The notes beneath the pieces were generated by a model. It was not told the origin of the DNA. It made no database searches and saw only the letters and a list, made by a program, of their open reading frames with translations. This document shows positions 33,064 to 50,734 of a stretch of DNA of 64,000 bases, piece by piece. Each line of letters starts with the position of its first letter. Positions within the stretch are counted from its first letter, which is position 1. Source of the stretch: Kutzneria viridogrisea (GTDB lineage: Bacteria > Actinomycetota > Actinomycetes > Mycobacteriales > Pseudonocardiaceae); NCBI GenBank assembly GCA_014138725.1, contig JACJID010000003.1:806001-870000 (forward strand), given 5' to 3'. The position numbers were made by a program, and so were the translations under genes.

Positions 33064-34608
33064 TCAGCGTGGGACCAGTGTGGACTCCGTGGCGAGGCGG
33101 GTCAGGGTGCGGCGGCACACCTTGCTGGTCGGGGCGAGCGGGAACTCCGGCAGCACGAGCAGCAGTTCGGGCAGCTTGCGGGGTTCCAGGCCGCGGGCGC
33201 GCAGGAAGTCGGTGAGCTGACCGAGGTCGGGCGGCTGCTGCCCCGGCCTGATCGTCACGCAGGCGCACATGCGCTCACCGAGGTCCTCGTCGGGCACCGG
33301 CACGCAGACGACCTCGCCAATCATGGGATGGGCGGCGATCTCCCGCTCCACCTCGGCGGGGCTGATGCCGTAACCACCGCGCACCACCACGGTGCGCAGC
33401 CTGCCGAGCACGTGCAGCCTGCCCCCCGAGTCGAAGCGGCCGCGGTCCCCGGTGCGCACCCAACCGCCGGGCAGCCGGTACGCGGAGTCCAGTTCGGGCG
33501 CGCCGAGGTAGCACAGCGGGGTCATCGGGCCGCGCGCGCAGATCTCCCCGTCGATGATCCGGATCTCGGTGACGGTGTGGTCCGGCACGCCGACCCCCTG
33601 CTCCGGGTGGGCGGTGTGGCAGTTGACCCCGTCGGAGGACCCGTAGATGTTGATCAGGTCCACGCCGAACCCGCGGCGCACGCGGTGCACGGTGTCGGCC
33701 AGCAGCATGTCGGAGCTGGAGACGACGGCGCGCAGCGAGGCCAGGTTCGCGTGCACGGGCTGGTCCACCATGCGCCGGAGCATGGTCGGCACGGCGAACA
33801 CGTGGGTCGGGCGGTGCGCGGAGATCAGGCCCAGCGCGTGCTCTGGGTGGAACCGGCGGGTCAGGACCAGCGTTCCGCCGAGGCAGCACAGGGTGATCGC
33901 GACGCCGAAGGAGCCGTAGGAGGAGGCCAGCGACACGAGCAGCAGGTCGCGGACGACCGGCTCCCCCCGGTGCACGGCGCGGATGTAGTTGGCGCGGCCA
34001 CCGGCGAAGGCGTTGTGCGAGTAGGCGACGATCTTCGGCGCGGTCTCGGAGCCGGAGGACACCAGGAACCGGGCCGGGGCCTCCGGATCGACCTGCGGTG
34101 CCCGCCAGCCGGGATCCGGTTCGGGCAGCACCGCGGGCAGCACGAACACGGCGCGCAGGTGCGGCAGCCGCCCGCTGATCATCGGGACCTCGGACTCGGC
34201 GTCGACCAGCGCGACACTGGCCCTGGACCGGCCGAGCAGGCTCAGGGCGTCGGCGGTGCCCCGGCCGGGCGGCACCGGCAGCGCGGCGGCGCCGATCGCG
34301 GCGACGGCCAGTTCGGCGACCACAGCGTGCCGGCTGTTGTGCATGTGGGTGGCGATGATGTCGTGCGGGCCGAAGCCGTTGCGGGTCAACAGGGTTGCCA
34401 GCCTGAGCACCTCGTGGTGCAGCTCGGCGTACCCGAGGTCGCCCTGGTCGTCGATCACGGCGACTCGGCTGGGCCAGCGGGTGGCCTGTTCTCGGAACAG
34501 CGAGTACAGGTCGTGGTCCGGGCAGTGGCCCTGCTCCACCCACTGCCGCCGCAGGGCGACGGGCACGAGGTCGCGGAGGGTCACACCGTTGGTGGAGGTC
34601 CAGGTCAT
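33064..34608 (-). CDS. AMP-forming acyl/aryl-acid ligase 1
   Basis: A 514-residue adenylate-forming enzyme that activates a carboxylic acid with ATP, possibly passing it to CoA or another acceptor. The phosphate-binding loop is unusual, 'FLVSSGSETAPKIVAYSHN' instead of SGTTGxPKG. 'NIYGSSDGVNCHTAHP' takes the place of the A5 motif, and 'GWVRTGDRGRFDSGG' and the catalytic Lys region 'LAPTSKVCRRTLTRL' are present. It is most like the EntE/DhbE aryl-acid ligases. It is last in the eight-gene left operon, its start overlapping the CaiB stop (ATGA). The substrate is unknown. Confidence 0.88.
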   Translation of the reverse strand: MTWTSTNGVTLRDLVPVALRRQWVEQGHCPDHDLYSLFREQATRWPSRVAVIDDQGDLGYAELHHEVLRLATLLTRNGFGPHDIIATHMHNSRHAVVAELAVAAIGAAALPVPPGRGTADALSLLGRSRASVALVDAESEVPMISGRLPHLRAVFVLPAVLPEPDPGWRAPQVDPEAPARFLVSSGSETAPKIVAYSHNAFAGGRANYIRAVHRGEPVVRDLLLVSLASSYGSFGVAITLCCLGGTLVLTRRFHPEHALGLISAHRPTHVFAVPTMLRRMVDQPVHANLASLRAVVSSSDMLLADTVHRVRRGFGVDLINIYGSSDGVNCHTAHPEQGVGVPDHTVTEIRIIDGEICARGPMTPLCYLGAPELDSAYRLPGGWVRTGDRGRFDSGGRLHVLGRLRTVVVRGGYGISPAEVEREIAAHPMIGEVVCVPVPDEDLGERMCACVTIRPGQQPPDLGQLTDFLRARGLEPRKLPELLLVLPEFPLAPTSKVCRRTLTRLATESTLVPR

Positions 34609-36005
34609 GTAGAGAACTCCCAGGGAGAACAGGGGAAGACGCAGCCTTCACGCACGAGCGCTGCGGCGAATCGGGGGTCGGCGGCCAACTCGGTCAGGTC
34701 GGTGCAGATCGGCACCTCTGGTGAGGACGTGCCGAGCGGGCCGGAGCTCAGCCGCACGGCCGCGGACAGCAGCGAGGAGTCGACCCGGCTCCCCTCGCCG
34801 GTGAGTGCCTTGTGCAGCAAGGCGTCCAGCACGCCGTGCGCGCAGACCAGGCCGCCGAAGATGTCGACGACCGTCATCAGCGAGGGTGTTCGGGCGGCGA
34901 GTCCGCTGTGGGCCTGCACGAGGTAGTCGGTGCCCAGCGGTGGGTCGGCGCCGAACTCCTGACCCCAGCCGGAGGCCCAGGCGTACACGATGCCGGGGCT
35001 GACCCGCGCCAGGTCCCCGGCGTCCAGTGCACGCTGCTCCGCCTTGCCCGGGGCCCAGTTGTGCAGGAACACGTCAGCGCCCGCGGCCAGCTCCAGGACC
35101 TCGGACCGGCCCTGGGCGGTGTTGAGGTCGATACGCAGCACCTGCTTGCCCCGGTTGACCGCCAGGAACCGCGCCGAGCAGTCACCGGAGATCGGCGGCG
35201 CACCGCGCAGCAGGTCGCCGCCGGGTGGCTCGATGCGGATCACCTTGGCGCCCAACAGGGTGAGCAGGTGACCGGCGAGTGGCCCTTGGAGTCGGCGGGT
35301 CACCTCCAGCACGGTGATCCCGGCGAGCGGGGCGGTTGCGCTGGCGGCCGGAAGTGTTGCCGTCCCAGGCAACGGGGTCAGCTGGTAGGCGGGAATGCCT
35401 GTGGGCGAACGACTCTGGACGCGGACGATGCTCATCCCGGTGTGGGCGGCGACCTCCCGCAGGCACGCGAAGGGGAGTTCACCGACCAGGTCGACCAGCT
35501 TGCCGGGCAACGGACAGGTCGCGGTGGCGAACCGATGCAGGAACGACTGCCAGCCATCGCGCACCGCGATCGGTTCCGCACACAGCACCGACCAGAAACA
35601 CTGCCAGACAAAGGGGTCCAGGGACTCGATCTCGAAGCGAACACCGTCGGAGGACACGAAGGGCGGTCCACCCGGCAGCAGCGGCTCGGGCCGGTCGTCC
35701 CCGGCGGTGGCGGCGGCCAGGTACTGGGAGATCACCAGCAGGGCGGCCTGAGCGACCGAAGTGGACACGGAGTCGAGCGGATTCCCCCTGATACGGGCGA
35801 TCTTCGCGGCGAGCACACCCTGGTCGAGCAGTTCCTCGGCGACCAGCGTGGCGTAGTCCAGGGCCAGCCGGGTGGGCTGCCCGTACCGGCGGCCGTGCAC
35901 GTGCATGATGCCGCAGGCGGCCTGCACGTCCGCCTCCCCGTGCAGCGGCAGGTCCACCGGCCCGGCCCAGGTCAGTCTTGTGTGGACGGTGTCGAGGACC
36001 TTCAC
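34605..36005 (-). CDS. CaiB/BaiF family III CoA-transferase-like protein with permuted halves
   Basis: A 466-residue protein built from family III CoA-transferase segments in swapped order. Residues about 25-220 resemble the linker and C-terminal half of normal CaiB proteins ('QAACGIMHVHGRRYGQPTRL', 'GVLAAKIARIRGNPLDSVST', then 'DGVRFEIESLDPFVWQCFW'). From about 245 the normal N-terminal Rossmann half follows ('GITVLEVTRRLQGPLAGHLL', 'FLAVNRGKQVLRIDL', 'ADVFLHNWAPGKAEQRAL', 'GTDYLVQAHSGLAA') and then a second copy of the linker ('VVDIFGGLVCAHGVLDALLH'). Both linker copies keep the Asp expected for the acyl-Asp intermediate. GTG 36005 overlaps the methyltransferase stop (GTGA). Confidence 0.8.
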   Translation of the reverse strand: MKVLDTVHTRLTWAGPVDLPLHGEADVQAACGIMHVHGRRYGQPTRLALDYATLVAEELLDQGVLAAKIARIRGNPLDSVSTSVAQAALLVISQYLAAATAGDDRPEPLLPGGPPFVSSDGVRFEIESLDPFVWQCFWSVLCAEPIAVRDGWQSFLHRFATATCPLPGKLVDLVGELPFACLREVAAHTGMSIVRVQSRSPTGIPAYQLTPLPGTATLPAASATAPLAGITVLEVTRRLQGPLAGHLLTLLGAKVIRIEPPGGDLLRGAPPISGDCSARFLAVNRGKQVLRIDLNTAQGRSEVLELAAGADVFLHNWAPGKAEQRALDAGDLARVSPGIVYAWASGWGQEFGADPPLGTDYLVQAHSGLAARTPSLMTVVDIFGGLVCAHGVLDALLHKALTGEGSRVDSSLLSAAVRLSSGPLGTSSPEVPICTDLTELAADPRFAAALVREGCVFPCSPWEFST

Positions 36006-36778
36006 AGCGGGCGCCTGCCGTGCACGGAGTACATCACGGTGGAACTGGCGCGGAACCGCTCGTCGGCCAGCAGCGCACGGACCTCGGCGAGGTCCTGCTC
36101 GGTCATGCCGGCGGCGATCAGCTTGTCCCGCAGGTGGTGCGTGTGGTTGATCTGCAACCGCACACCCGGCGAACCGGCACGCCACGGGTAGACCACCGGC
36201 AGCGGGTCGACCGCCACAAATCCCGCGGCGGCCATGGCCCCGGCGACCTTGCGGCCCCACGTGCCGTCGGCGCCCGCCTCGGCCAGCAGCACCTCCTTCG
36301 CCGCCTGGAACGCCTCGTACAGCTCGGCGGCACGCCGGTCGGGCGAGAGCAGCACCGGGCAGTAGCCGATGTCCGGCTCGTCCAGTTGCAGCCATCCACT
36401 GGGCCTGAGCGCACGAAGCAGCTTGCGCAGCACGGCATCCCGCTCGGGCAGGTGCATCAGCACGAGCCGGGCGTGGATCAGGTCGAACTCACCGTCCGGC
36501 AACGGGTCGTGCACGACCTCGTGGGTGTGGACGTAGGGGCGGATCGGCCTGATGTCGGTGGCCAGCACGGAGCCGGTCGGCCCGACCCGGCGGACGAGCC
36601 AGTCCGCCACGCTGCCACCGCCCGCACCGATCTCCCAGCAGCGCCAACCAAGTGAGACTCCAGTCTCAGCAAGCCGGGAGCAGGTGAGCGCGTCGTAGCA
36701 CTCGGTGAGGTAGCGGTGCTGGTCGACGGCGTGCACGTAGTCGTTGTCGAACACGTAGCCGGTTCTTGTTGACGTCAC
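36002..36778 (-). CDS. SAM-dependent methyltransferase
   Basis: A 258-residue class I methyltransferase. Motif I is 'RCWEIGAGGGSVADWLVRRV', motif II the acidic 'SVLATDIRPIRP', and motif IV/post I 'FDLIHARLVLMHLPERDAVL', a ubiE/MenG-like arrangement often used on quinone or prenylated phenol rings and on polyketide hydroxyls. No target can be deduced, but it stands with a UbiA prenyltransferase. GTG 36778 is preceded by GAGGGG, and the gap to the upstream ligase gene is ten bases. Confidence 0.9.
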   Translation of the reverse strand: MTSTRTGYVFDNDYVHAVDQHRYLTECYDALTCSRLAETGVSLGWRCWEIGAGGGSVADWLVRRVGPTGSVLATDIRPIRPYVHTHEVVHDPLPDGEFDLIHARLVLMHLPERDAVLRKLLRALRPSGWLQLDEPDIGYCPVLLSPDRRAAELYEAFQAAKEVLLAEAGADGTWGRKVAGAMAAAGFVAVDPLPVVYPWRAGSPGVRLQINHTHHLRDKLIAAGMTEQDLAEVRALLADERFRASSTVMYSVHGRRPL

Positions 36779-36788
36779 GGCGATCCCC

Positions 36789-38351
36789 TCAGGTCCAACG
36801 GCCGGAGCCGTGCGTTTCGGCGCGTCCGAGCAGCCTGGTCAGCAACTCGAGCCTGCGCACCTTGCCGGTGCCGGTGCGCGGGACCTCGGGCCAGGTCACT
36901 GTGTGCGGCTCGGCCAGCGCGGGCAGGTCGGCCACGGCCAGGCACCAGCGGTCCCGGTCGATCCGGCCGTCCTCGGTCACCAGCACCGGCAGCGGAAGTC
37001 GGCCGGTGGCGCCGAGCACCACGCACTCGACCACCTCGGGCAACCGGTCCTCGATCACGTCCTCCAGTTCCAGGCAACTCAGCCCGGGGATCGTGTCGAC
37101 CTCCCTGTCCAGCAGCAGCAGGGCGCCGGTCCTGGTCAGCACGCCGAGGTCGCCGGTGTTCCACCAGGGGCCAATCGCCTTGGCCCGCCAGCGATCCTGC
37201 TCGCCGACGTAGCCGGTGCAGCGGGCCGCGGTCCTGGTCAGCACCAGCCCGGGTGTGCCACGGGGCAGCGGCCGGAAGGTCACCGGGTCGACCACGCGCA
37301 GCCTGGGGCCGCCCGGCAGCGGCCTGCCCAGGTGCCGGGTTGTCGGGTGCCGCGAGCGCGCGGCCAGCGCACGGCGGGTCAGGAACCGAAAGGTGATCGG
37401 CCCGGTCTCGGTCTGCCCCCAGCCCTGCATCCACAGTGGACGGTCACGCTGCGAGGCGGCCAGCAGGGTGCGCACGGCGGGCGGGTGCATCGCGTCGTAG
37501 GTGCTGACGTACAGGCGGACCGCGCGGAACGGGTTGTCGCGGCTGGCGGCGAGGCGCTGCCAGCGCACGTACGCCGAGGGCAGGGCCTCCACCGTGGTGG
37601 GCGGGTGCTCGGACAGCACGCGTGCCGCGATGGCGGGGTCGTGTTCGCTGAGGATGGCGATCTTCCTTGGCGCGGCGGAGAAGACGGCCGCGGTCCAGCA
37701 GAAGGTGCGGCCGTGCGCGTAGGAGCTGGCGTTGGCCACCGTGTCGTCCCTGCGGGTGCCCACGACGGGCCAGCGGATCGACTCGGGCCGCGCCAGGGTG
37801 TCGATGATCGTGCGGGTGGTGTGCACGACGAGCTTCGGGGCACCGGTGGTGCCCGAGGTGTGGTTGACGACCAACGGCTCGTCGGCACCACGGCGCCGGA
37901 CCGGTGGGCTCGGGGTGCCGCGCAGGTCCTCCAGCGCGGTCGCACCGGGCCAGGGCTCGCCGAGCGCGAGCACGCGGCGGGCCGATCCCGCGGGCAGCGG
38001 GCGGTCGGTCAGCACGACCGCGGGCTCCAGGCGCTTGAGCAGCGACTCCAGGGCGTCCTCGGGCAGGTGACCGGAGATCAGCGCGGGCAGGGCGCCGATG
38101 CGTATGGCAGCGCAGGCGATCAGGTCGTAGTCCCAGTGGTTGCGCTTGACCACGGCGACGCGGTCGCCCGGCCCCGCGCCGAGCGCGGCCAGGCAGCCCG
38201 CGAGCTCGGCGGTGAGCTCGGCCAACCGCGAGACGGTCAGCGCCGTGCCCGCCTCCGGCGCGATGTCCAGCGGACGGTCGAGGTGCAGCACGGTGTGGCT
38301 GCCCCGATCCGCGCACTGGTCGAACAGGGTGCCCATGTCATGTGGCCTCAC
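36789..38351 (-). CDS. AMP-forming acyl-acid ligase 2
   Basis: A 520-residue adenylate-forming enzyme with canonical motifs: 'VVNHTSGTTGAPKLVVHTTR' (phosphate loop), 'WMQGWGQTETGPITF' (A5), 'WWNTGDLGVLTRTGALLLLD' (A7-A8) and a C-terminal Lys in 'RTGTGKVRRLELL'. It resembles fatty- or aryl-acid-CoA ligases. Two ligases in one operon suggest two different acids, or one activating and one tailoring step. GTG 38351 is chosen because GGAGG lies eight bases upstream and the GTGA overlap with the preceding stop is the norm in this operon; ATG 38336 is possible. Confidence 0.9.
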   Translation of the reverse strand: MRPHDMGTLFDQCADRGSHTVLHLDRPLDIAPEAGTALTVSRLAELTAELAGCLAALGAGPGDRVAVVKRNHWDYDLIACAAIRIGALPALISGHLPEDALESLLKRLEPAVVLTDRPLPAGSARRVLALGEPWPGATALEDLRGTPSPPVRRRGADEPLVVNHTSGTTGAPKLVVHTTRTIIDTLARPESIRWPVVGTRRDDTVANASSYAHGRTFCWTAAVFSAAPRKIAILSEHDPAIAARVLSEHPPTTVEALPSAYVRWQRLAASRDNPFRAVRLYVSTYDAMHPPAVRTLLAASQRDRPLWMQGWGQTETGPITFRFLTRRALAARSRHPTTRHLGRPLPGGPRLRVVDPVTFRPLPRGTPGLVLTRTAARCTGYVGEQDRWRAKAIGPWWNTGDLGVLTRTGALLLLDREVDTIPGLSCLELEDVIEDRLPEVVECVVLGATGRLPLPVLVTEDGRIDRDRWCLAVADLPALAEPHTVTWPEVPRTGTGKVRRLELLTRLLGRAETHGSGRWT

Positions 38352-39682
38352 ACCCGCTGCCTCCCCGGTTGTGTTGTCCTGTCGAGGATCCGGCTCGCCG
38401 CCAACTCCCCCGCGCACACCGCGCCCTCACTGCTGGGGCGCAGCTTCACCCAGTCGCCCGCGTAGTCCACGACGCCGCCGAGCCGCGACTCGAACCCGGC
38501 GCGCAGGCCCAGCGCCCGCGGTGTCGCCTCGGGCAGCCCGTACCGGATCCGGCTGACCATCGCGCGGGTCGTGGCCTCGCGCAGCCCCGGCACGTAGTGC
38601 TCCCCCGCCTCGGCCAGCCGCGTGACGATCTCCTGTTCCGGCGCGTCCAGCAGCTCCGGCACGACCGCCGGGTTGGCGATCAGCGTGACGAGCCCGCAGC
38701 CGTGCGGCACGCGGGACGGGTGCTTGACGTGGTCGAACATCACGGTGCAGACGGTGGGGTCCTCGACCGGGGGCACCAGCAGGGCGTAGATCCGCCCGCC
38801 GCCGCGCGGTGCGAGCCGGCGGTCCAGCAGGTAGTGGGCCTTGACCACCGAGGTGAACGAACACGCTTGCAGGAAGGGGAGTTCGTGCTCGGGTGGATTG
38901 GCGTGCAGGGCCAGCGCCACCGGGGCGGGCACCGCGAGCAGCACCGATCGGGCCCGGATCTCGTTGTGCTCGAACAGGATCCGCGCCGAGTCACGGTCGG
39001 CCACGACCTGCCGCACGGGGCTGGACGTGCTGAGGTCCACCTGGTCGGCGAGTGTCCGTGCGGGCGTGTCCATGCCCTCGGCGTAGGTGCGCCACTGGGT
39101 GGCGGGCCCGACCGCCGCGAGCAGGCTCAGGAACGGGGCGACGGAGCTGCGGTGCGGGTCCCAGCCGAAGAACGCCGCCACCACCGGGTGGAACAGGTAC
39201 TCGCCGAGGTCGCGGTGGTACCGGCGGGCCAGGTCGGCGACGGTGGCCGAGCCGAACGGGGTCGCCTCGGGCCGGTGCGGGTCAAGGCGGTGGCGCGCGG
39301 CCAGCGCCATGATCCGGAACAGGTCCCAGCGCGCGGACAACGGCAGACCGGCACCGGTGAGCAGGCCGCGCGGCCGGGCCACGTCGGGGTGCGCCCTGTC
39401 GTGGCGCCACATGCCGATCCCGCCCTCGATCCTGGGCGCCCGCGAACGGTCGATGCCCAACTCCGCGAGCAGCCGCCAGGTCGTGTCGTAGCCGCGCTCT
39501 GGAACCTGTTCTGCCCCGGTGTCCACGAGGTAGCCCGCCGACCTGATCGTGGCCATCCGTCCGCCGATCCGGTCGGTCGCCTCGAACACGCGCACCGAGC
39601 GGCCCGCCGCGCGCAGCCGGTGCGCGGCCGTCAGCCCGGCGATGCCCGCGCCGACCACGGCCACGTCGATCTCGGCGGTCAC
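38348..39682 (-). CDS. FAD-dependent amine oxidase / protoporphyrinogen-oxidase-like flavoprotein
   Basis: A 444-residue flavoprotein of the monoamine oxidase/phytoene desaturase/PPO superfamily. The FAD motif is 'VAVVGAGIAGLTAAHRLRAA' with RVFEATDRIGGRM. The C-terminal FAD contact 'VDYAGDWVKLRPSSEGAVCA' to 'GELAASRIL' replaces the usual GD...G.. segment. It sits directly after a UbiA-type prenyltransferase, and such oxidases often oxidise or desaturate prenyl or cyclic intermediates. GTG 39682 overlaps the ubiA stop (GTGA). Confidence 0.88.
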   Translation of the reverse strand: MTAEIDVAVVGAGIAGLTAAHRLRAAGRSVRVFEATDRIGGRMATIRSAGYLVDTGAEQVPERGYDTTWRLLAELGIDRSRAPRIEGGIGMWRHDRAHPDVARPRGLLTGAGLPLSARWDLFRIMALAARHRLDPHRPEATPFGSATVADLARRYHRDLGEYLFHPVVAAFFGWDPHRSSVAPFLSLLAAVGPATQWRTYAEGMDTPARTLADQVDLSTSSPVRQVVADRDSARILFEHNEIRARSVLLAVPAPVALALHANPPEHELPFLQACSFTSVVKAHYLLDRRLAPRGGGRIYALLVPPVEDPTVCTVMFDHVKHPSRVPHGCGLVTLIANPAVVPELLDAPEQEIVTRLAEAGEHYVPGLREATTRAMVSRIRYGLPEATPRALGLRAGFESRLGGVVDYAGDWVKLRPSSEGAVCAGELAASRILDRTTQPGRQRV

Positions 39683-40608
39683 CGGATCACCACCAGGTCG
39701 AGGACCACCAGCAGCAGCACGGTGAGCCGGTGCACGTGCACTCCGAGTTTGCGCGCGCGCAGGATGTCCCCGTGCACGAAACCGGTGCGCCACTGCCGCA
39801 TGCGCAGGACGATCGCCGGCAGCATGGCCAGCGGGAACCACCACGGACCGCCCACGAAGGGCGCGAGCAGGATCAGCGCGGTCTCGGCGGCGGACACGGC
39901 GCCCACGAACAGGGCGTTGCCCCGGTGGGAGGTCAGCACCGCGACGGTTGGGCGGCCCACCTGCCGGTCGCCCTCGATGTCGTTGGTGTTGGAGTAGACC
40001 CCGAACAGCAGCGGCCCCAGCCCGAAGACCAGTGCCTGCACGAGCGCGAAGCCCTCGAACCGCCCGGCGGTCAGCCCGTACGGGACGAGCACGACCGACC
40101 AGCCCAGTGCGGCGAGGAAGAACTCCTGGAAGCCGCGGTAACTCAGCTTGACGCCCCAGGAGTACTGCACGGCGAACACGAAGGTCACCGCGACCAGCAG
40201 GACAGTCCACAGTGGAGTGTTTGGCGCGATGACCGTGGCCGCGATCCACAGCACAGCGCCGAGCACGCCGGTGATCCAGGCGAAGCGCAGCACCTGCTGT
40301 TCGGTCAACGTGCCCGCCACCAGGGGTTTGCGGGCCAGCCTGCGGCGGCGGTCGTCCGGGGCGTAGTTGGCGAGGTCGCTGCCGTCCCGGTACCCGGTCA
40401 GGTCGTCCAGGGCGACCATCGTGACCATGACCAGCACCTCGCCGAGCAGGAAGACCAGCAGCACCACCAGGATCTGCGGGTCCAGCCGCAGCGCGGGCGC
40501 GAGCAGCGCCCACGCCAGCAGCGGGCTCAGGTAGTAGTCGAAGATGTCCAGCTTGGCCAGCCGGAGGTACGCGGTGCGGTCGCGGGACAGGTGGGACACG
40601 GGCCGCAT
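39679..40608 (-). CDS. UbiA-family prenyltransferase
   Basis: A 309-residue integral membrane enzyme that transfers a prenyl group from a polyprenyl diphosphate. Two Asp-rich motifs bind the Mg-diphosphate: 'MVALDDLTGYRDGSD' after the second helix and 'SNTNDIEGDRQVGRPTVAVL' further on. About eight to nine hydrophobic helices follow the family pattern. The acceptor could be an aromatic ring, a quinone precursor or a cyclitol/sugar-like unit. The start is ATG 40608 with GGAGGAG six bases before it; an upstream ATG overlaps the previous stop but lacks a site. Confidence 0.93.
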   Translation of the reverse strand: MRPVSHLSRDRTAYLRLAKLDIFDYYLSPLLAWALLAPALRLDPQILVVLLVFLLGEVLVMVTMVALDDLTGYRDGSDLANYAPDDRRRRLARKPLVAGTLTEQQVLRFAWITGVLGAVLWIAATVIAPNTPLWTVLLVAVTFVFAVQYSWGVKLSYRGFQEFFLAALGWSVVLVPYGLTAGRFEGFALVQALVFGLGPLLFGVYSNTNDIEGDRQVGRPTVAVLTSHRGNALFVGAVSAAETALILLAPFVGGPWWFPLAMLPAIVLRMRQWRTGFVHGDILRARKLGVHVHRLTVLLLVVLDLVVIR

Positions 40609-40622
40609 GGCTGTCTCCTCCA

Positions 40623-41735: not shown

Positions 41736-42898
41736 GCGGCCCGCCCCAGGTAGAACCGGCGCATCGCGGCGCACACCCGGTCCACGTCCTCCAGGGACAG
41801 GTCCGGATAGAGCGGCAGGGCCACGCTCGTCCGGCAGGCGGCCTCGGCGTTGGGGAACTCACCCGGCCGGTGGCCCAGTTCGGCGAAGCAGGGTTGCAGG
41901 TGCAGTGGGGTCGGGTAGTACACCTCGGTGCCCACCCCGCAGGCCGTCAGGTGCTCGACGAGCTGATCGCGGCGGTCGACCTCGACCACGTAGACGTAGA
42001 ACACGCCCCGCACCTGCTCCGGGCGGCGCAGCACGCGGGGCAGCCGCCGGATCCCCGGCAGGCCCGCCAGCCGCTCGGTGTAGGCGGCGGCCAACTCGGC
42101 GCGGCGCTGGATGTCACGGTCCAATGTGGACAGCTTGGCCAGCAGCACGGCGGCCTGGATGTCGTCCATCTTGCTGTTGAACCCGGGCATGCCGGTGGCG
42201 GAGTTGATGCCGGGGAAGTTGTCGATCGTGCGCCCGAACCGCCCGTGGTGGCGCAGCGCGGACACGACCTCGGCCAGCTCCGGGTCGTTGGTGAGCACGG
42301 CGCCCGCGTCGCCGAGCGCGCCCAGGGTCTTGGTGGGGAAGAACGACAGCACGCCGCCCGCACCGAGCAGCCCGGCGTGCGTTGCGCCGTAGCTCATGCC
42401 GATGGCCTCGGCGCTGTCCTCCAGCACGGTCAGCTCGCGGCGGGCGGCGATCGCCAGCAGCGCGGTCATGTCGGCGGGCTGGCAGAACAGGTGCACCGGC
42501 ATCAGGTAGCGCGTGCGGTCGGTCAGCACGGACTCGACCGAACCGGGATCGAGGCAGTAGCCCTCCGGCTCGATGTCGGCGAACACCGGCCGTCCCCCGG
42601 CGAGCACCACCGAGGAGGCCGTGGCGACGAAGGAGAACGCCGGCACCACCACCTCCTGCCCCGCGTCGAGCCCCGCGGCGAGCAGCAGCAGGACCAGCGC
42701 GTCCGTTCCGCTGTTCACCCCGATGACGTATTCGGCCCCGGTGTAATCAGCGAGCGCACATTCGAGTTCGGCAACCTTGCGGCCATGTGAGTATTTGCCA
42801 CTGTTCATGACATCGACGATGTGACGCCGCGTTGTCGGCCACTGTTCCGCGAATCCGGATGCTTGCGTAAAGAAGGACACCCCAGCCCCCGAGGACAT
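41732..42898 (-). CDS. DegT/DnrJ/EryC1-family PLP aminotransferase 2
   Basis: A 388-residue aminotransferase, first gene of the left operon. The key blocks are 'VIGVNSGTDALVLLLLAAGL', 'VVVPAFSFVATASSVVLAGG', 'LTVLEDSAEAIGMSYG', the PLP lysine in 'LSFFPTKTLGALGDAGAVL' and 'GFNSKMDDIQAAVLLAKL'. It is closest in pattern to nucleotide-sugar 3- or 4-aminotransferases such as WbpE, which take a 3-keto sugar from a Gfo/Idh partner. ATG 42898 follows GGGAGGTGTGC. The longer reading frame adds 30 unrelated residues and is not used. Confidence 0.93.
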   Translation of the reverse strand: MSSGAGVSFFTQASGFAEQWPTTRRHIVDVMNSGKYSHGRKVAELECALADYTGAEYVIGVNSGTDALVLLLLAAGLDAGQEVVVPAFSFVATASSVVLAGGRPVFADIEPEGYCLDPGSVESVLTDRTRYLMPVHLFCQPADMTALLAIAARRELTVLEDSAEAIGMSYGATHAGLLGAGGVLSFFPTKTLGALGDAGAVLTNDPELAEVVSALRHHGRFGRTIDNFPGINSATGMPGFNSKMDDIQAAVLLAKLSTLDRDIQRRAELAAAYTERLAGLPGIRRLPRVLRRPEQVRGVFYVYVVEVDRRDQLVEHLTACGVGTEVYYPTPLHLQPCFAELGHRPGEFPNAEAACRTSVALPLYPDLSLEDVDRVCAAMRRFYLGRAA

Positions 42899-43086
42899 GC
42901 ACACCTCCCGATCTACCAGCGAATTCGAGAGTAGGACAGTCCCGTTCAATTCCCGAGCACACCTCGCGTGTTCACTCTTCCTGGTCAACCATCGGATGCC
43001 AGGATTGACAGGGCACAGGCCAGGAGGACACCGTTAATGGCGGTCAATTCCGAGCGCTACTCCATTTCAGTGACGGGGCCGAGAAA
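42899..43086. promoter_or_regulatory. Divergent promoter region of the biosynthetic cluster
   Basis: 188 bp, noticeably AT-richer than its surroundings, between the two operons. TTGACA occurs at 43005-43010 in the rightward direction but no matching -10 is convincing. No regulator gene is present inside the cluster, so control probably comes from elsewhere. Confidence 0.5.
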
Positions 43087-44112
43087 TTGCAGACACTCGT
43101 TGTGGGGCTCGGCAGGGCCGGGGCGGGGTTGCACCTGCCGGTGCTGGCGAAGGCCAGGACGGCAGCCACACACCTGTTCGCCGACCGCCCCGTGGTGGCG
43201 TGCGACCCCAGGCGCACGCTGGCCGACCGGCCGGACCTGACCGTGACCTCCACACTGGAGCAGGCCGAGCGGCAGGTGGACCCGGCCGACACGGTGGTGC
43301 ACGTGTGCACCCCGCCCACCGTGCGCACCGAGCTCATCGGGCAGCTGGCCGGGTACGGCTTCCGCCGGATCATCGTGGAGAAGCCCCTGGCCACCGACAC
43401 CGACGACCTGGCGCGCATCGTGCGGCTGCGGCGCAGGCACAACCTGCACATCGAGGTGGTGGAGCCCTGGCTGACCAGCGCGCTGACCAAGCGGCTGCAC
43501 GGCCTGCTGCGCGAGGGCACGCTGGGCGAACCGCGCTCGCTGACCATCGTGCAGAACAAGCCCCGGTTCCGGCGGTCCCTGCTGACCAGCGGGCATCCCA
43601 CGGCCTTCGACGTGGAGCTGCCGCACGGGGTGGCGCTCGCGCTGCGGCTGGCTGGCAGCGCCCGGGTCACGCACGCACTCGGCAGCGACATGGCCGTGGG
43701 TGATCTGCTCATCCCGCGAATGGGTGGGGCGCAGGTGGGATTGCGGCACAACAGCGGGGTGCGCACAAGGATCGAGTCCGATCTGACCTCGCCGGTGCGC
43801 GAGCGGCGGGTCACCCTGGAATTCGAGCGGGGCACCGCCACCGGCCACTACGCGGTCGGCGAGGACGACGAATACGCCCAGCTCACGGTGACCGTCAACG
43901 GGCACGCCGAACACCGCGTGCTGCGCGACGATTCCCTGACCACCTGGATGTTGCAGGCCTACCGCAATTTCCGCGTGGGCACCGAGCACGCGGGGCAGTC
44001 CTTCTCCTTCGCCGCCGACGTGGTGCGCACCCTGTCGGTGGCCAAGAACATCTGCGCGGAGCCCGTGGTGCCCGACGCCCGGGGCGAGCGGCTGACCCGG
44101 CATGCCGGTTGA
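43087..44112 (+). CDS. Gfo/Idh/MocA-family NAD(P) dehydrogenase 1
   Basis: A 341-residue oxidoreductase with an N-terminal Rossmann fold (TLVVGLGRAGAGLHLPVL) and the family fingerprint 'RRIIVEKPLATDTDDLARIV' (EKP motif). The C-terminal domain contains 'SGHPTAFDVELPHGVALALR', where D and H take the usual catalytic positions. Members oxidise secondary hydroxyls of sugars, inositols or nucleotide sugars. It opens the right operon, divergent from two aminotransferases. The start is taken as TTG 43087, which lacks a strong ribosome site; no ATG or GTG fits better. Confidence 0.87.
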   Translation: MQTLVVGLGRAGAGLHLPVLAKARTAATHLFADRPVVACDPRRTLADRPDLTVTSTLEQAERQVDPADTVVHVCTPPTVRTELIGQLAGYGFRRIIVEKPLATDTDDLARIVRLRRRHNLHIEVVEPWLTSALTKRLHGLLREGTLGEPRSLTIVQNKPRFRRSLLTSGHPTAFDVELPHGVALALRLAGSARVTHALGSDMAVGDLLIPRMGGAQVGLRHNSGVRTRIESDLTSPVRERRVTLEFERGTATGHYAVGEDDEYAQLTVTVNGHAEHRVLRDDSLTTWMLQAYRNFRVGTEHAGQSFSFAADVVRTLSVAKNICAEPVVPDARGERLTRHAG

Positions 44113-44938
44113 GCGGCGAGCCGTGCTGGCGGGCATCGCGGACGAGGCGGGGCACGGGCTGCGCACCCAGATCTCGGCGATCCGCGCGCTGGGCTGGGGC
44201 GGCATCGAACTGCGCTGCGTGGACCGGTTCCCGGTCGCGGAGCTGGACGAGCACCGATTCGCCCGCGTGGTCGAGGAGCTGGCCGCGGCCGAGCTGCACG
44301 TGGTGTGCCTGGCCTCGCGGATCGGCAGCTGGGCGCGGCCGATCAGCGGGCCGTTCGACCTGGACCTGACCGAGCTGGACGTGCTGGCGCGGCGGTGTGC
44401 GGCGCTCGGCACGCGTTACGTGCGGGTCATGTCCTACCCCAACGACGGCCTGGACGAGGCGCAGTGGCGCGCGCGGTGCGTGGATCGCCTGCGGGTGCTG
44501 GCCACGCGCGCCGAGGACTCGGGAGTGACGCTGCTGCACGAGAACTGCTCCGGGTGGGCGGGCACCAGCGCCAAGCGCATGCTGGAGCTGCTCGACGCGG
44601 TCGACAGCCCGGCGCTGCGGCTGCTGTTCGACACCGGCAACGGCATCCCGCACGGCTACGACGGGCTGGCGGTGCTCAAGGAGATCGTCGAGCACGTCGC
44701 GCACGTGCACGTCAAGGACGCGGTGGGCAGCCCGGCCGAGCACAGCTACACCCTGCCCGGTGCGGGCCAGGCCCGGGTGACCGACTGCGTGAGGTTGTTG
44801 CGGGACAACGGGTACACGGGGGCGTGGTCGCTGGAGCCGCATCTGGGCCTGCGACCGCACGAGCCGGGCGAGCTGGCGGCGGACGCCCCGCAGCGGTTCC
44901 TCGCCGCCGGGCGGGCGATGACCGAGCTGCTGCGATGA
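44102..44938 (+). CDS. Sugar-phosphate isomerase/epimerase-like TIM-barrel protein
   Basis: A 278-residue xylose-isomerase-like TIM barrel. The divalent-metal ligands typical of the family are visible: Glu in 'GVTLLHENCSG', Asp in 'LRLLFDTGNGIPHG', His in 'AHVHVKDAVG' and Glu in 'GAWSLEPHLGL'. Relatives include inosose dehydratases and hydroxypyruvate or ketose 3-epimerases, so a keto-sugar or inosose is a fair guess. The start overlaps the preceding gene by 11 bases and its stop overlaps the next start (ATGA). Confidence 0.88.
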   Translation: MPVERRAVLAGIADEAGHGLRTQISAIRALGWGGIELRCVDRFPVAELDEHRFARVVEELAAAELHVVCLASRIGSWARPISGPFDLDLTELDVLARRCAALGTRYVRVMSYPNDGLDEAQWRARCVDRLRVLATRAEDSGVTLLHENCSGWAGTSAKRMLELLDAVDSPALRLLFDTGNGIPHGYDGLAVLKEIVEHVAHVHVKDAVGSPAEHSYTLPGAGQARVTDCVRLLRDNGYTGAWSLEPHLGLRPHEPGELAADAPQRFLAAGRAMTELLR

Positions 44939-46182
44939 ACCGCGCCGACCGGGACCTGTTGCTGGGGCTGCTCGAACTGCCCACGGCGGGTCCGCTGGAG
45001 ACCGACGGGCCGGTACGGCTGTGGCAGGCGATGCACAGCTACGCGTTGGCGGCCAACGGGATCGGCTTCGAGACCGTCCGGCTGACCACGGCCACCACGA
45101 CGGCGGCACTGCGACCCGACGTGCCGCTGCCGGTACGGGAGGCCGTGGCGCGGGGACCGGAATTCCTCGCCGCACAGCCAAGTCTGGTGCTCCGCCTGGG
45201 TCCTGCCAAACCCGCCGTGATGTTCAACGTGCACCTGGACACCGTGGCCGGGGCCGAACCTGTGCGCTACACGGACGGGCGGTTCCACGGCCGCGGCGCG
45301 ATCGACGCCAAGGGGCCGGCCGTCGCGCTGCTGGCCGGGGTCCGCCATGCCCTGCTGGCCGAGCCCGCGCTCGGCCGCGACGTGGGTGTGCTGGTGCAGG
45401 CGGTGTCCGGCGAGGAGGGTGGGGCGCTGGGCACGATCGGCACCCGCCCGCTGGTCGAGGACGGGTTCTTCGGTCGGCTCAACGTGTTCTGCGAGCCGAC
45501 CGGGCTGCGCTGGCTGAGCCGGTGCACGGCGGCGATGACCGCCAGCGTGCGGGTGGCGGGTCAGGACGCGATCGACGACCAGCCGCACGCGGGGCACAAC
45601 GCGACGGTGCTGCTGGGATTCCTCGCGCAGCACCTGGGCGCGGCGCTGACCGGCCAGGTCCCGGACGGGCAGGTCTGCGTCGCGGGGCTGCACACCGGGC
45701 GGCTGCACAACCGGGTGTACGGCACGGGCGAGTTGCTGCTCAACCTGTCCTACGGCTCGGCGGGCTCGGCACAGCGGCTGACCACGCTGCTGGAATCGGG
45801 GCTGCGCGAGGGTTTGGCCGAGTTCCGCGCGCGGTTCGCAGACAGCCCGGTGTACCGCCGCACCGCTGTGGAGGCCGAGTCCGTGACCCGGCTGAACTGG
45901 CTCAAGCGGGGCCTGCCCGCGCTGGACTGCCGGGACTCGTGGGGCGAGGCGCTGCTGGACCAGGTCGTGCCGCGTTGGCCCGAGCACGAACCCGGCTTCA
46001 CCTGTGACGCCATCTGGCTGGCCGGGGTGCCCGGCACCTGCACGGTGGTGCTCGGCCCCGGGTCGCTGGCCGCCAACAACGCGCACGCCGAGGGCGAGTT
46101 CGCCGACGAGCGGGAACTGGACCGGTTCGCCGAGGTCGTGTGCGAGATCCTGATCAGGTTCGCACGGAACGGAGTGGCATGA
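44935..46182 (+). CDS. M20-family zinc amidohydrolase
   Basis: A 415-residue di-zinc hydrolase of the ArgE/DapE/CPG2 group, which cleaves N-acyl amino acids and small amides. The metal ligands are in order: 'MFNVHLDTVAGAE' (His, Asp), 'FHGRGAIDAKGPAVAL' (bridging Asp), 'AVSGEEGGALGT' (catalytic Glu and ligand Glu), 'NVFCEPTG' and the last His in 'AANNAHAEGEF'. In a biosynthetic cluster it could remove an acetyl or other protecting group from an amino sugar- or amino acid-derived intermediate. Coupled to its neighbours by ATGA overlaps on both sides. Confidence 0.9.
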   Translation: MNRADRDLLLGLLELPTAGPLETDGPVRLWQAMHSYALAANGIGFETVRLTTATTTAALRPDVPLPVREAVARGPEFLAAQPSLVLRLGPAKPAVMFNVHLDTVAGAEPVRYTDGRFHGRGAIDAKGPAVALLAGVRHALLAEPALGRDVGVLVQAVSGEEGGALGTIGTRPLVEDGFFGRLNVFCEPTGLRWLSRCTAAMTASVRVAGQDAIDDQPHAGHNATVLLGFLAQHLGAALTGQVPDGQVCVAGLHTGRLHNRVYGTGELLLNLSYGSAGSAQRLTTLLESGLREGLAEFRARFADSPVYRRTAVEAESVTRLNWLKRGLPALDCRDSWGEALLDQVVPRWPEHEPGFTCDAIWLAGVPGTCTVVLGPGSLAANNAHAEGEFADERELDRFAEVVCEILIRFARNGVA

Positions 46183-47246
46183 ACGACACGGTGCTCGTGC
46201 CGCACAGGACGCTTCTGTCCACTGTGGCCGGTGTCTTCGCCGAGCGCGGGCTCGCCCCGCGGCGGGCCGAGATCGCCGCCGAGGCCCTGTGCCACGGCGA
46301 TCTCACCGGGGTCAGCTCGCACGGGCTGGTCAACCTGACCCGGCTCTACCTGCCGCTGTTCGCCGAGGGCAGGACGGATCCGCTGGCGGAGTTGGAGATC
46401 CTCAACGACCTGGGCGCCTGCCTGCACGTGGACGCGCACGAGGCGCTCGGGCTGTGGGCCGCCGCGGAGGCGGTGAAGATCGCCACCGAACGCGCCAGCA
46501 GGTTCGGCCTCGGCCTGGTGTCGCTGCGCCGCGCCACGCACATCGGCTGCGCGGGCTACCACGCGTTGCGGGCGGCGCGGCAGGGCATGATCGGGTTGAT
46601 CGCGTCCAACTGTGGCGGCCAGCGCATCGCTCCCCCGCCCGGCGGGCTCGCCGCGATGCTGGGCACCAACCCGCTCAGCCTCGCCTGCCCCGCCGGTGCG
46701 GGCCCGCCCTTCGTGCTGGACATGAGCACCACGGTCGTGCCCACCGGCCGGATCCGTGCGGCGGCACGGGCCGGTGATCCGATACCCGCGGGCTGGCTGG
46801 CCGGCAGGGATGGCGAACCGGTCACCGACCCCGCGGCGCTCGACCGGGGGGAGGCACACCTGCGCTGGCTCGGCGGCAGCCCGGAAACCGGTTCGTACAA
46901 GGGGTTCGGGCTCGGACTGCTGGTGGAGGTGCTCGCCGCGCTGCTGCCCGGCGCGGCGCTCGGGCCGGTGTCGGACAGCGGCGGCCGGGACGAGGACATC
47001 GGTGTGCTCGCGCTGGTGATCGCACCCGAGGTGCTGCGGCCGGGCGGCTCGTTCGCCGCCGACTCGGCCAGGCTGTTCCGCGCGCTGCTGGACTGCCCGC
47101 CGGTCGACCCCGCGCAGCCGGTGCGCTACCCGGGCTGGCCGGAGGCGGAGCGGGCCGCGCGCAATCGGGTGCGGGGAATCCCCTTGCCCAGGGCCCTGTT
47201 CGAGGAACTCAGCGCGCTCGCGCCGGAACTGCGGGAGGTCGGGTGA
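46179..47246 (+). CDS. Ldh-family (malate/L-lactate, DpkA-like) NAD(P) oxidoreductase
   Basis: A 355-residue member of the non-Rossmann malate/lactate dehydrogenase family. Diagnostic features are 'LTGVSSHGLVNLTRLYLPLF' (catalytic His in SSHG), 'LRRATHIGCAGYHAL', 'AMLGTNPLSLACPAG' and 'GSYKGFGLGLLVEVLAALLP'. Relatives reduce 2-keto acids, ureidoglycolate or cyclic imino acids such as piperideine-2-carboxylate. With an aminotransferase and an amidohydrolase nearby, reduction of a cyclic imine carboxylate is one testable idea. It is coupled to the genes on both sides by overlaps. Confidence 0.9.
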   Translation: MNDTVLVPHRTLLSTVAGVFAERGLAPRRAEIAAEALCHGDLTGVSSHGLVNLTRLYLPLFAEGRTDPLAELEILNDLGACLHVDAHEALGLWAAAEAVKIATERASRFGLGLVSLRRATHIGCAGYHALRAARQGMIGLIASNCGGQRIAPPPGGLAAMLGTNPLSLACPAGAGPPFVLDMSTTVVPTGRIRAAARAGDPIPAGWLAGRDGEPVTDPAALDRGEAHLRWLGGSPETGSYKGFGLGLLVEVLAALLPGAALGPVSDSGGRDEDIGVLALVIAPEVLRPGGSFAADSARLFRALLDCPPVDPAQPVRYPGWPEAERAARNRVRGIPLPRALFEELSALAPELREVG

Positions 47247-48151
47247 TCCGCCTGGGGGTCGTCGGGCTCGGGGTGATCTCACGGTTCTACCTGGCCGCGA
47301 TCGCCGCACTGCCCGACTGCGAGCTGGCCGCGGTGTGCGATCCGCACGGGGAGGCGCTGGACCCGTTCCGGGACAAGGCCCGCTGCCACGCCGACCACCG
47401 CGAGATGCTCGCCGGGGGTGGGCTGGACGCCGTGGTGGTGACCGCGCCCAACGACGTGCACCTGGTCGTGTGCCGGGACGTGCTGCACGCGGGACTGCCG
47501 GTCTGCGTGGAGAAGCCGCTGGCCACCACGCTGGAGGACGGGGCCGAGCTGGCCGCCGTCGCACGAGACCGTAGTCTCACCTTGTTCACGGCCTTCCACC
47601 GCCGCTACAACAGCAACGTGCTGGCACTGCGGGAGGAACTGGCCGGTGCGGGTCCGGTCGAGTCGCTGACCGTGCGGTACCTGGAGCGGATCGAGGAGCA
47701 CGTCGGCCGCGACCGCTGGTACCTGGATGCCGCGCGCTGCGGCGGCGGGTGCGTGGCGGACAACGGCCCGAACGCGCTGGACCTCGTGCGCTGGCTGCTC
47801 GGCCCGCTGCGGCTGACCGGGGTGCGGATCACCCGCGATGCCACGGGGATCGACCGCCAGGCCGTGCTGGAGCTGCACGGGTCGTGCCCGGCGCGGGTGG
47901 AGCTGGACTGGTCCTATCCGGGCGAGTGCAAGGACATCACGGCGTGCCTGGCCGACGGGACCGAGCTGCGCGCCGACATGCTCGGCGGCTACCCGGGGTT
48001 CAAGGGCTCGCTGTGGCACGAGTACGAGGGCGTGCTGCGGGACTTCCTCGGTGCGGTGCCGCTGGGCGCGAGGTGGGATGACGCGGGGCTCAGCGCGTTG
48101 GCGCTGGTGGACCAGGTCTACCGAGTGGAAGGGAGCCAGTCGGGTGCTTGA
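47243..48151 (+). CDS. Gfo/Idh/MocA-family NAD(P) dehydrogenase 2
   Basis: A 302-residue oxidoreductase. The Rossmann motif is 'RLGVVGLGVISRFYLAAIAA', the family motif is 'LPVCVEKPLATTLEDGAELA', and the catalytic region is 'GGCVADNGPNALDLVRWLLG' (Asp and Asn where D/H are common). It is shorter than the first Gfo/Idh gene of the operon and clearly not a duplicate. The EKP motif and 'FTAFHRRYNSNV' resemble the WbpB/MviM group that oxidises nucleotide sugars. GTG 47243 overlaps the previous stop. Confidence 0.9.
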   Translation: MIRLGVVGLGVISRFYLAAIAALPDCELAAVCDPHGEALDPFRDKARCHADHREMLAGGGLDAVVVTAPNDVHLVVCRDVLHAGLPVCVEKPLATTLEDGAELAAVARDRSLTLFTAFHRRYNSNVLALREELAGAGPVESLTVRYLERIEEHVGRDRWYLDAARCGGGCVADNGPNALDLVRWLLGPLRLTGVRITRDATGIDRQAVLELHGSCPARVELDWSYPGECKDITACLADGTELRADMLGGYPGFKGSLWHEYEGVLRDFLGAVPLGARWDDAGLSALALVDQVYRVEGSQSGA

Positions 48152-48614
48152 GGACGGGCCGAAACGGGCTGTGCGTACGACCGTGGTGAAGGTGCTGGTG
48201 CACCAGCGGCGGGACCGGGGCATGAGCCTGGAGCCGCACGCCAGCCGCTGCGTGCGGCAGGGCGAGGTGCACGAGTTGGTGACCACCGACCACGCGGAGA
48301 CCGCGCCGGGCTCGCGCATCGACCGGGTGGGTTTCCTGGGCTTCGTTGAGGTGGGCAACGCGGGTGTGCTCGACCGCGGGGACCAGGTGTGGGTCGACGG
48401 GGTGTTCGTGGGCACCGTGCTCGGCTTCGACGCCTGCCACTTCCCCAACCACTACAACGTCCTGATCCACACCGTGGCACCGGTCACCGGACCGGACCTG
48501 GGGCTGCTGCCGGAGGACGTGGTGGTGTTCGCCCCCGCCACGGTCCCGGCGGGGGCGAACGGCACATCGGCGGGTCAGCCCAGCAGCGGCACGTCCAGCG
48601 TGCCGAAGTGGTAG
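48144..48614 (+). CDS. Small conserved-looking protein, last gene of the right operon
   Basis: A 156-residue soluble protein I cannot assign with confidence. The central part 'VKVLVHQRRDRGMSLEPHAS' then 'GSRIDRVGFLGFVEVGNAGV', 'GDQVWVDGVFVGTVLGFDAC' and 'HFPNHYNVLIHT' has the regular beta-strand spacing of a small beta-barrel, with several His and one Cys that could bind metal. The final 20 residues are low complexity. GTG 48144 has AAGGGAG upstream and overlaps the preceding stop by eight bases, so it is translated with the operon. Its 3' end overlaps the convergent calerythrin-like gene by 40 bases. Confidence 0.8.
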   Translation: MLEDGPKRAVRTTVVKVLVHQRRDRGMSLEPHASRCVRQGEVHELVTTDHAETAPGSRIDRVGFLGFVEVGNAGVLDRGDQVWVDGVFVGTVLGFDACHFPNHYNVLIHTVAPVTGPDLGLLPEDVVVFAPATVPAGANGTSAGQPSSGTSSVPKW

Positions 48615-50422: not shown

Positions 50423-50734
50423 TCACTCTTCGGTCTGGAAGCTGCCCGAGCCGGGTACCACGTGCGAGCCGAAACCCGGGTTGACATCCAGCGAGGGCGA
50501 CAGGCAGAACGGGTCGGCGTAGATCTCCACCGGGGTGTCGGTCTGGTTGACCAGCACGTGCGCCGCCAGCGGTAACTTCTTGCAGCCCTTGGGGTTCTCC
50601 CACACAGTCAGCGGCACGTACTCCAGCTCGAAGACCAGGACCCTGCCGGTCGCGGCCTTGGCCGAGGCCGTGGCGGGCGCCAGCAGGGCCGCGCCCACGA
50701 GCAAGGCGGCAACGATGGCGGTGACGCGGTTCAT
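50423..50734 (-). CDS. Small secreted protein of unknown function
   Basis: A 103-residue exported protein. The signal peptide MNRVTAIVAALLVGAALLAP ends near ATASA. The mature part of about 75 residues has one Cys in 'NPKGCKKLPL' and one in 'ADPFCLSPSL', likely a disulfide, and no known motif. GGGAGG upstream of the ATG supports the start. Nothing nearby suggests its role. Confidence 0.8.
   Translation of the reverse strand: MNRVTAIVAALLVGAALLAPATASAKAATGRVLVFELEYVPLTVWENPKGCKKLPLAAHVLVNQTDTPVEIYADPFCLSPSLDVNPGFGSHVVPGSGSFQTEE

Follow-up and report, generated by a model that had tools for sequence, protein, structure and literature searches.

Judged by gene calls and conservation, a 64,000-nucleotide stretch of the Kutzneria viridogrisea genome (the window; contig JACJID010000003.1, positions 806,001 to 870,000) carries a cluster of 16 genes: 14 in two divergent operons, and an EF-hand gene and the UDP-sugar 6-dehydrogenase gene UDPdh just to the right of them. 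The source genome (label G000) measures 10.25 Mb, and the cluster lies on its contig C3. Our leading interpretation, to which we give nearly an even chance, is that UDPdh and eight core genes (DegT1, DegT2, Gfo1, TIM, M20, Ldh2, Gfo2 and DUF6917) would make a sugar-derived ortho-amino (hetero)aromatic acid, prenylated in the window by a membrane protein of the UbiA family. What we observed is gene content, conservation, conserved catalytic positions, a gene fusion and the architectures of related loci; every reaction and the kind of ring are inferred.

Gene content was compared across 39 distinct loci with enough flanking DNA, the window included. The loci were found via UbiA or DUF6917 searches and incomplete ones were set aside, so that figures for UbiA, DUF6917 and completeness are biased upward. 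All eight core genes were present in 37 of the 39 loci, the remaining two lacking TIM only; each of the other seven was found in every locus. UbiA occurred in 36/39, the flavin adenine dinucleotide (FAD) oxidoreductase in 34/39, UDPdh in 33/39 and the EF-hand gene in 32/39. Counts for the adenylating enzymes AMP2 (26/39) and AMP1 (21/39), the methyltransferase (26/39) and the CaiB-like protein (18/39) are minimum values, since many flanks stop short of these genes. A first-pass annotation of the window had treated the two operons as one unit, and the co-occurrence check agreed: the operons travel together. A pattern-based scan of genome contigs yielded 20 loci with UbiA, from Saccharothrix, Amycolatopsis, Umezawaea, Lentzea, Streptomyces, Nocardiopsis, Actinophytocola, Actinomadura, Actinocatenispora, Crossiella and Microtetraspora and from a Pseudonocardiaceae metagenome-assembled genome; the Microtetraspora locus (L039) held UbiA and no other cluster gene. 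Around DUF6917, 30 short loci (L050-L079) had Gfo2 and Ldh2 beside it in every case, UDPdh in 24 and the EF-hand gene in 23. The same genes in the same order are found in many actinomycetes, so the cluster is not a chance grouping.

The distribution of DUF6917 followed that of close UbiA relatives. In a sample of 296 genomes drawn evenly from the class, DUF6917 was present in six and UbiA, at any distance, in 12. The six DUF6917 genomes were exactly the six with a UbiA of at least 50% identity (53-100%), a line drawn after the data were seen; UbiA identity in the other six was 26-45%. Under independence the chance of this overlap is 1.1e-12, with kinship among the genomes (three GTDB families) uncorrected. 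DUF6917 was found only in the window's genome in a phylum sample of 296 genomes and in none of 14 control genomes. Within the window's family, Pseudonocardiaceae, 92 of 390 genomes and 15 of 46 genera carried it, yet six listed genomes of the same genus had none; the cluster is therefore patchy in its family. Three congeneric genomes (G249, G574 and G581) had UbiA and Ldh2 on one contig and TIM, M20 and a fused Gfo2::DUF6917 gene on another. The fused gene lay at least 36 kb from the ends of its contig in G574 and G581, and the UbiA side, read for G249 only (L047), lacked M20, Gfo2 and DUF6917. That both split parts are kept speaks for one pathway.

Three loci had UDPdh and all eight core genes and lacked UbiA, the FAD enzyme and the EF-hand gene: L081+L104 (G922), L110+L126 (G816) and L118+L124 (G805). 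G816 and G805 showed no UbiA match anywhere in the genome; G922 carries a second, UbiA-type cluster. A maximum-likelihood tree of 32 DegT rows, in which outgroup rows have long branches, set all DegT1 rows apart by one branch (support 95/94) and all DegT2 rows by another (82/71). Branching order was identical for the two, with L081 and L110 first, then L118, then the UbiA-type loci. It seems that both DegT paralogues travelled with the module, as though it had been inherited as a unit.

L104+L081 (G922:C1:5078000-5093000) runs on one strand, with overlaps or short gaps, in the order UDPdh, TrpD, TrpC, TrpB, TrpA, Gfo1, DegT1, DegT2, TIM, M20, Ldh2, Gfo2::DUF6917. TrpD, TrpB and TrpA scored above their NCBIfam cut-offs and TrpC 0.6 bits under, with Pfam and, for TrpD, solved structures as further evidence. 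The genome has another TrpA and two other TrpD-like genes, and the TrpC, TrpB and TrpA of the cluster share 45, 57 and 38% identity with copies at L122. No TrpE-type (chorismate-binding) gene was found within 0.7 Mb of L081; the four in G922 are at other sites, including one a few kb away from the L122 trp copies. The KHG motif of the cluster TrpD carries Ala in place of the His present in 7/7 other TrpDs compared, a His that we take to contact anthranilate. This locus may make a tryptophan analogue. An EamA transporter gene lies near its trp operon. At L110+L126, a TrpB-like gene was found nearby.

In L118+L124, the core operon includes an AICARFT-like gene, placed between UDPdh and Ldh2. UDPdh is followed by a Lyase_1 gene that looks, by eye, like an adenylosuccinate lyase, and the genes facing the operon are ForT and PurC-, PurA- and IMPCH-like ones. 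ForT was clear, matching the solved ForT 6yqq at E 2.9e-105; a search of ten genomes found ForT only in G805 and G574. The surroundings include an EPSP/enolpyruvyl-transferase family gene, a radical SAM protein, 2-oxoglutarate-dependent oxygenases and a carbamoyltransferase-like gene. By its gene content, the region looks like a pathway for a C-nucleoside with a modified sugar. L118, L124 and L125 together (G805:C218:1-52000) make up a large nucleoside-like region, which also encodes a protein like a nonribosomal peptide synthetase (NRPS). Each UbiA-less architecture with ring-forming partners is known from one genome (L081 from G922, L118 from G805).

TrpD, TrpC, ForT and the PurC/PurH types act where an amine neighbors a carboxylate or carboxamide on an aromatic ring, and UbiA and MenA prenylate aromatic acids. 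The simplest common denominator of these partners would be a core product that is an ortho-amino (hetero)aromatic acid. A UDP-amino-hexose as starting material would suit UDPdh, the two Gfo/DegT pairs and M20, and we place a uronate at the beginning of the pathway because UDPdh recurs in most of the 39 loci, including all three without UbiA. UDPdh would oxidize C6 to the carboxylate (UDP-GlcNAc to UDP-GlcNAcA), and two rounds of Gfo/Idh oxidation and DegT transamination would install two amines. M20 would remove the N-acetyl group, Ldh2 would act at the carbon beside the carboxylate (on a 2-hydroxy acid/2-keto acid or a cyclic imine), TIM would isomerize, and DUF6917 would work with Gfo2. An amine would then close on a carbonyl, and loss of water would give the aromatic ring. 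A hexuronate with two amines would yield 3-aminopicolinate on loss of water, or 3-aminopyrrole-2-carboxylate if the C2 amine closes on C5; these two ring types fit best on paper, and we make no choice between them. With a polyprenyl diphosphate as donor, UbiA would prenylate the electron-rich ring, the FAD enzyme would oxidize the prenylated product, AMP2 and AMP1 would activate carboxylates with CaiB moving coenzyme A (CoA), and the methyltransferase would cap the product, a prenylated amino-heteroaryl acid derivative. In the sister loci, the core would feed TrpD-C-B-A, giving a tryptophan-like amino acid, or ForT and PurC/A/B/H-like enzymes, giving a C-nucleoside.

The nearest solved structures were 2oga ("Transaminase", which we take to be DesV), the scyllo-inositol transaminase 7b0d and WbpE for DegT2, and 7b0d, 2oga and WbpE for DegT1. 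A lysine column (K160 of the short DegT1 form) is invariant across 12 DegT1 and DegT2 sequences and is presumably the pyridoxal phosphate (PLP) lysine, as expected of DegT enzymes that aminate and do not dehydrate. In M20, H100, D102, D124, E160, E161, E187 and H384 are invariant in 13 sequences; from the role they have in the family, we take them to be candidate di-metal ligands. H48 of Ldh2 is invariant in 14 sequences, and solved members of its family include 2-hydroxy-acid dehydrogenases and delta1-piperideine-2-carboxylate reductase. Among solved proteins, Gfo2 is nearest to L-arabinose 1-dehydrogenase, with inositol dehydrogenases and, weakly, WbpB further down. The last gene of the right operon had been called a small unassigned protein; the gene is real, but it is assignable, to DUF6917. 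In six other loci (L081, L107, L110, L111, L113 and L118), Gfo2 and DUF6917 form one protein with DUF6917 at the Gfo2 C-terminus, which suggests that DUF6917 serves Gfo2. Its predicted structure is a confident small beta barrel, for which no significant match among solved structures was found.

By its PF01040 match and two Asp-rich motifs, the window's prenyltransferase belongs to the UbiA superfamily. Both motifs are intact, with D68, D69, D75, D78 and D210, D214 invariant in 17 sequences. The protein is far from every curated subfamily, its best NCBIfam score being 30 bits against a cut-off of 269. The FAD enzyme likewise scored far under cut-off for its best NCBIfam model, HpnE (69 against 283 bits). 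In L088 and L097, the core operon has on its flanks genes that read by eye as DXS, IspG and IspH, of the methylerythritol phosphate (MEP) type, as would suit an isoprenoid product.

UDPdh resembles a UDP-ManNAc-type dehydrogenase, Cap5O and CalS8 most closely among solved proteins. It scored under the cut-offs of substrate-specific models, and sequence does not settle Glc versus GlcNAc. It is conserved with every cluster architecture, the EF-hand gene with the UbiA-type clusters. By this conservation, both genes belong to the cluster, though they lie on the strand opposite to the right operon, and the border drawn in the first-pass annotation (33064..48614) is too narrow.

That annotation had read the cluster as building an acylated core derived from an aminated sugar or cyclitol, and a model on these lines, in which a diamino sugar or aminocyclitol stays such while the AMP ligases acylate it, UbiA prenylates it and methylation follows, has to be weighed. 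Sugar-type chemistry with two aminations, and prenylation, acid activation and methylation as tailoring, are supported by our analysis: DegT1 and DegT2 are similar to aminotransferases of nucleotide sugars and cyclitols, Gfo2 to dehydrogenases of sugars and inositol and TIM, weakly, to IolE and sugar epimerases, and the nearest matches of UDPdh are dehydrogenases of the amino-uronate kind. An acylated sugar or cyclitol as the core is nevertheless not the best reading. Pfam and NCBIfam searches found neither a glycosyltransferase nor a 2-deoxy-scyllo-inosose-type cyclitol synthase among the 16 genes, which leaves the cluster without the marks of an aminoglycoside or aminocyclitol pathway, and the sister loci pair the core with TrpD/C/B/A or with ForT and PurC/A/B/H-like enzymes. 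To our knowledge, these families take no sugars or cyclitols as acceptors, and we regard the model as rather unlikely. Still less probable, in our judgment, is that the core is a general aminouronic-acid module with TrpDCBA and ForT/Pur as separate neighbor or precursor-supply pathways, so that no aromatic ring is implied. Trp paralogues often serve tryptophan supply, L118 sits in a larger nucleoside-like region with other genes, and the occurrence of each ring-partner architecture in a single genome also fits such a module. However, TrpDCBA is part of a single run of touching genes, with UDPdh on one side and Gfo1 on the other, AICARFT is between UDPdh and Ldh2, no TrpE-type gene is near L081, and the cluster TrpD is altered in its KHG motif.

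UbiA itself could be a terpene cyclase relative or a lipid-type prenyltransferase, in which case the core would supply the polar amino head group of a terpenoid or membrane lipid. UbiA relatives with 44% identity (L039 and L048) lie near DXS, IspG, IspH and polyprenyl synthase genes (named by eye) and lack the core, none of the 16 window genes encodes a transporter, and UbiA-related diterpene synthases are described in PMC10055836. Such a product appears improbable to us, as no prenyl-diphosphate synthase was found among the 16 genes, the Asp motifs equally fit a prenyltransferase, and the core occurs without UbiA in three loci. The statement that the cluster has no polyketide synthase (PKS), NRPS or terpene cyclase needs only a narrower wording: Pfam matched no PKS, NRPS or class I/II terpene-synthase family among the 14 operon genes, but, given the UbiA-related enzymes, absence of any terpene cyclase is not strictly claimable.

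Several observations weigh against an ortho-amino aromatic acid as the core product. The window's UbiA has no more than distant relatives among solved enzymes, and for this reason its acceptor is not readable from the sequence. No gene was recognized that would remove UDP or serve as a dedicated aromatase. In the DNA examined, 6/39 loci show no UDPdh, and two loci are without TIM. The trp genes at L081 could serve to increase tryptophan supply. At L118+L124, the Pur-type genes score under NCBIfam cut-offs (AICARFT reaches 414 bits where 415 are required), and the match of the PurA-like gene spans roughly half of the model. A Lys/Orn N-monooxygenase gene lies about 16 kb from the L118 core operon (L125:6718-8004), so that a formycin-like N-N route could operate there. 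In G574, ForT is on a different contig from DUF6917; ForT thus does occur apart from the core. The MEP-bearing loci L088 and L097 lack FAD and AMP2 matches. Finally, L049 groups UbiA, AMP2, AMP1 and CaiB relatives (28-37% identity) in a genome without DUF6917, which implies that the left-wing enzymes can serve other acceptors. L049 also holds a methyltransferase, a P450 and an MMPL transporter.

The cluster bears a likeness to several known systems. One is the WbpA-WbpB-WbpE type of route to UDP-3-amino-uronates, which uses the same three families, UDPdh, Gfo/Idh and DegT. This combination recurs in the loci compared (UDPdh in 33/39, both Gfo and both DegT genes in 39/39); DegT1 and DegT2 match WbpE structures, and Gfo2 weakly matches WbpB. 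The cluster differs in having two Gfo/DegT pairs together with TIM, M20, Ldh2 and DUF6917, and in lacking a glycosyltransferase or acetyltransferase among its 16 genes. Congocidine contains a sugar-derived aminopyrrole acid, 4-acetamidopyrrole-2-carboxylate, according to a title cited in PMC4047045 that gives it a "sweet origin", and the same source proposes that the amidohydrolase Cgc14 deacetylates the pyrrole unit. Likened by description and not gene by gene, both systems would make a small amino-heteroaryl acid from a sugar and include an amidohydrolase. In congocidine, a pyrrolamide, the unit is polymerized by NRPS parts, whereas here it would be prenylated.

In formycin biosynthesis, as described in PMC8724604, ForT couples phosphoribosyl pyrophosphate (PRPP) to 4-amino-pyrazole-3,5-dicarboxylate and purine-type enzymes then close the second ring; the ring derives from lysine and glutamate via an N-N bond. 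The formycin A and pyrazofurin clusters are resembled by the sister locus L124+L118, with its ForT and PurC-, PurA-, lyase- and PurH-like genes, and the neighborhood of L118 and L124 has genes similar in kind to malayamycin genes given in the same source. The window's genome differs in having no ForT match. With the aromatic prenyltransferases UbiA and MenA, the window's enzyme shares the family and both Asp motifs, but it stands far from any of their curated subfamilies.

Gene calls and starts came from a home-made codon-usage caller. The 14 genes of the two divergent operons are true open frames by codon usage, as had been described, and Pfam and NCBIfam bore out the families named for them: AMP-binding (two), CoA_transf_3, methyltransferase, Amino_oxidase, UbiA, DegT (two), Gfo/Idh (two), TIM barrel, M20 and Ldh_2. 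Almost all junctions had been said to be ATGA/GTGA overlaps. Such overlaps are present, but "almost all" overstates them: 4-base overlaps occur at 7/12 junctions. In the left operon they join 4/7 junctions, the remaining three being gaps of 11-34 bases; in the right operon they join 3/5, and the other two overlap by 8 and 11 bases. TIM has an alternative start at 44123, and reading from this second start puts a 10-base gap in place of the junction overlap. DegT1 most likely starts at ATG 42898, with GGAGG just upstream and the same N-terminus in longer relatives. For Gfo1, the most likely start is TTG 43087, as aligned relatives begin at the same Rossmann motif. No sigma-70-type consensus match was found in the region between the operons. 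The CoA_transf_3 match of the CaiB-like protein falls in two stretches, the best at residues 227-424, and AMP2 gave no AMP-binding_C match in Pfam.

Features of the cluster in the window (positions are those of the window; aa, amino acids; E, E-value).
Feature	Description	Position	Strand	Length	Evidence
AMP1	acyl/aryl-AMP ligase	33064..34608	-	514 aa	PF00501 E 2e-47; PF13193
CaiB	CaiB-like CoA-transferase family III protein	34605..36005	-	466 aa	PF02515 E 5.3e-55
MT	S-adenosylmethionine (SAM) methyltransferase	36002..36754	-	250 aa	PF13489/PF08241
AMP2	adenylating enzyme	36789..38336	-	515 aa	PF00501 E 4.5e-45
FAD	FAD oxidoreductase, amine oxidase/PPO/HpnE type	38348..39682	-	444 aa	PF01593 E 3.1e-37
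UbiA	UbiA-family membrane prenyltransferase	39679..40608	-	309 aa	PF01040 70.4 bits (cut-off 34.2)
DegT2	PLP sugar-type aminotransferase, core	40623..41735	-	370 aa	PF01041 E 3.6e-90
DegT1	PLP sugar-type aminotransferase, core	41732..42898	-	388 aa (corrected start)	PF01041 E 4.1e-107 (shorter form)
Intergenic region	divergent, between operons; promoters presumed	42899..43086	none	188 bp	gene borders
Gfo1	divergent Gfo/Idh/MocA dehydrogenase, core	43087..44112	+	341 aa (from TTG)	PF01408 E 1.9e-06 (shorter form)
TIM	xylose-isomerase-like TIM barrel, IolE/epimerase type (AP_endonuc_2), core	44102..44938	+		PF01261 E 3.7e-30
M20	M20-family amidohydrolase, core	44935..46182	+	415 aa	PF01546 E 3e-16
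Ldh2	malate/L-lactate dehydrogenase family oxidoreductase, core	46179..47246	+	355 aa	PF02615 E 3.8e-97
Gfo2	Gfo/Idh/MocA dehydrogenase, core	47243..48151	+	302 aa	PF01408 E 7e-21
DUF6917	DUF6917 protein, core	48144..48614	+	156 aa	PF21891 E 1.4e-55
EF-hand	EF-hand calcium-binding protein	48575..49108	-	177 aa	PF13499; conserved with UbiA-type clusters
UDPdh	UDP-sugar 6-dehydrogenase	49149..50399	-	416 aa	TIGR03026 401 bits (cut-off 189.8)
Small protein	exported-looking; membership uncertain	50423..50734	-	103 aa	often adjoins UDPdh; no Pfam match

The small exported-looking protein belongs to a family (c15) seen in 12/48 sequences examined. To the left, 2.2 kb from the cluster, lies a tryptophanyl-tRNA synthetase gene (29847-30905); the genome has a second copy, at 33% identity. 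Among related loci, the cluster copies in L115, L116 and L121 have core genes that are fragmentary or absent, as would be seen in decaying copies or after assembly errors. Lone DUF6917 genes (38-60% identity) were found away from the core in L087, L112 and L114, that of L087 near an ATP-grasp ligase, a thiamine pyrophosphate (TPP) enzyme and a carbamoyltransferase. Beside the UbiA-type cluster of L109 (4473-7317), two type 2A encapsulin-like shell genes adjoin a polyprenyl synthase gene; Pfam confirmed the first shell gene and the synthase, and the second shell gene was recognized by similarity. L048 also has an AMP2 relative (39%), and L039 and L048 are possible terpenoid clusters.

Taken more broadly, the cluster may represent a previously unnamed actinomycete pathway, marked by DUF6917, from a UDP-hexuronate to an ortho-amino heteroaromatic acid. 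This sugar-derived analogue of anthranilate would be a nucleophile that different lineages couple to different electrophiles. We consider this wider proposal possible, if on balance doubtful. The electrophiles would be prenyl diphosphates with UbiA, PRPP at nitrogen with TrpD (a tryptophan analogue) and PRPP at carbon with ForT (a deazapurine-like C-nucleoside), and the window's cluster would be the prenylated branch. If the proposal is true, DUF6917 as a marker would reveal, in Pseudonocardiaceae, Streptomyces, Nocardiopsis, Actinomadura and others, a hidden pathway family that gives no PKS or NRPS signal. The proposal would also account for a new way of making aromatic amino acids from sugars, and it would predict new tryptophan analogues (L104+L081) and C-nucleosides (L118+L124).

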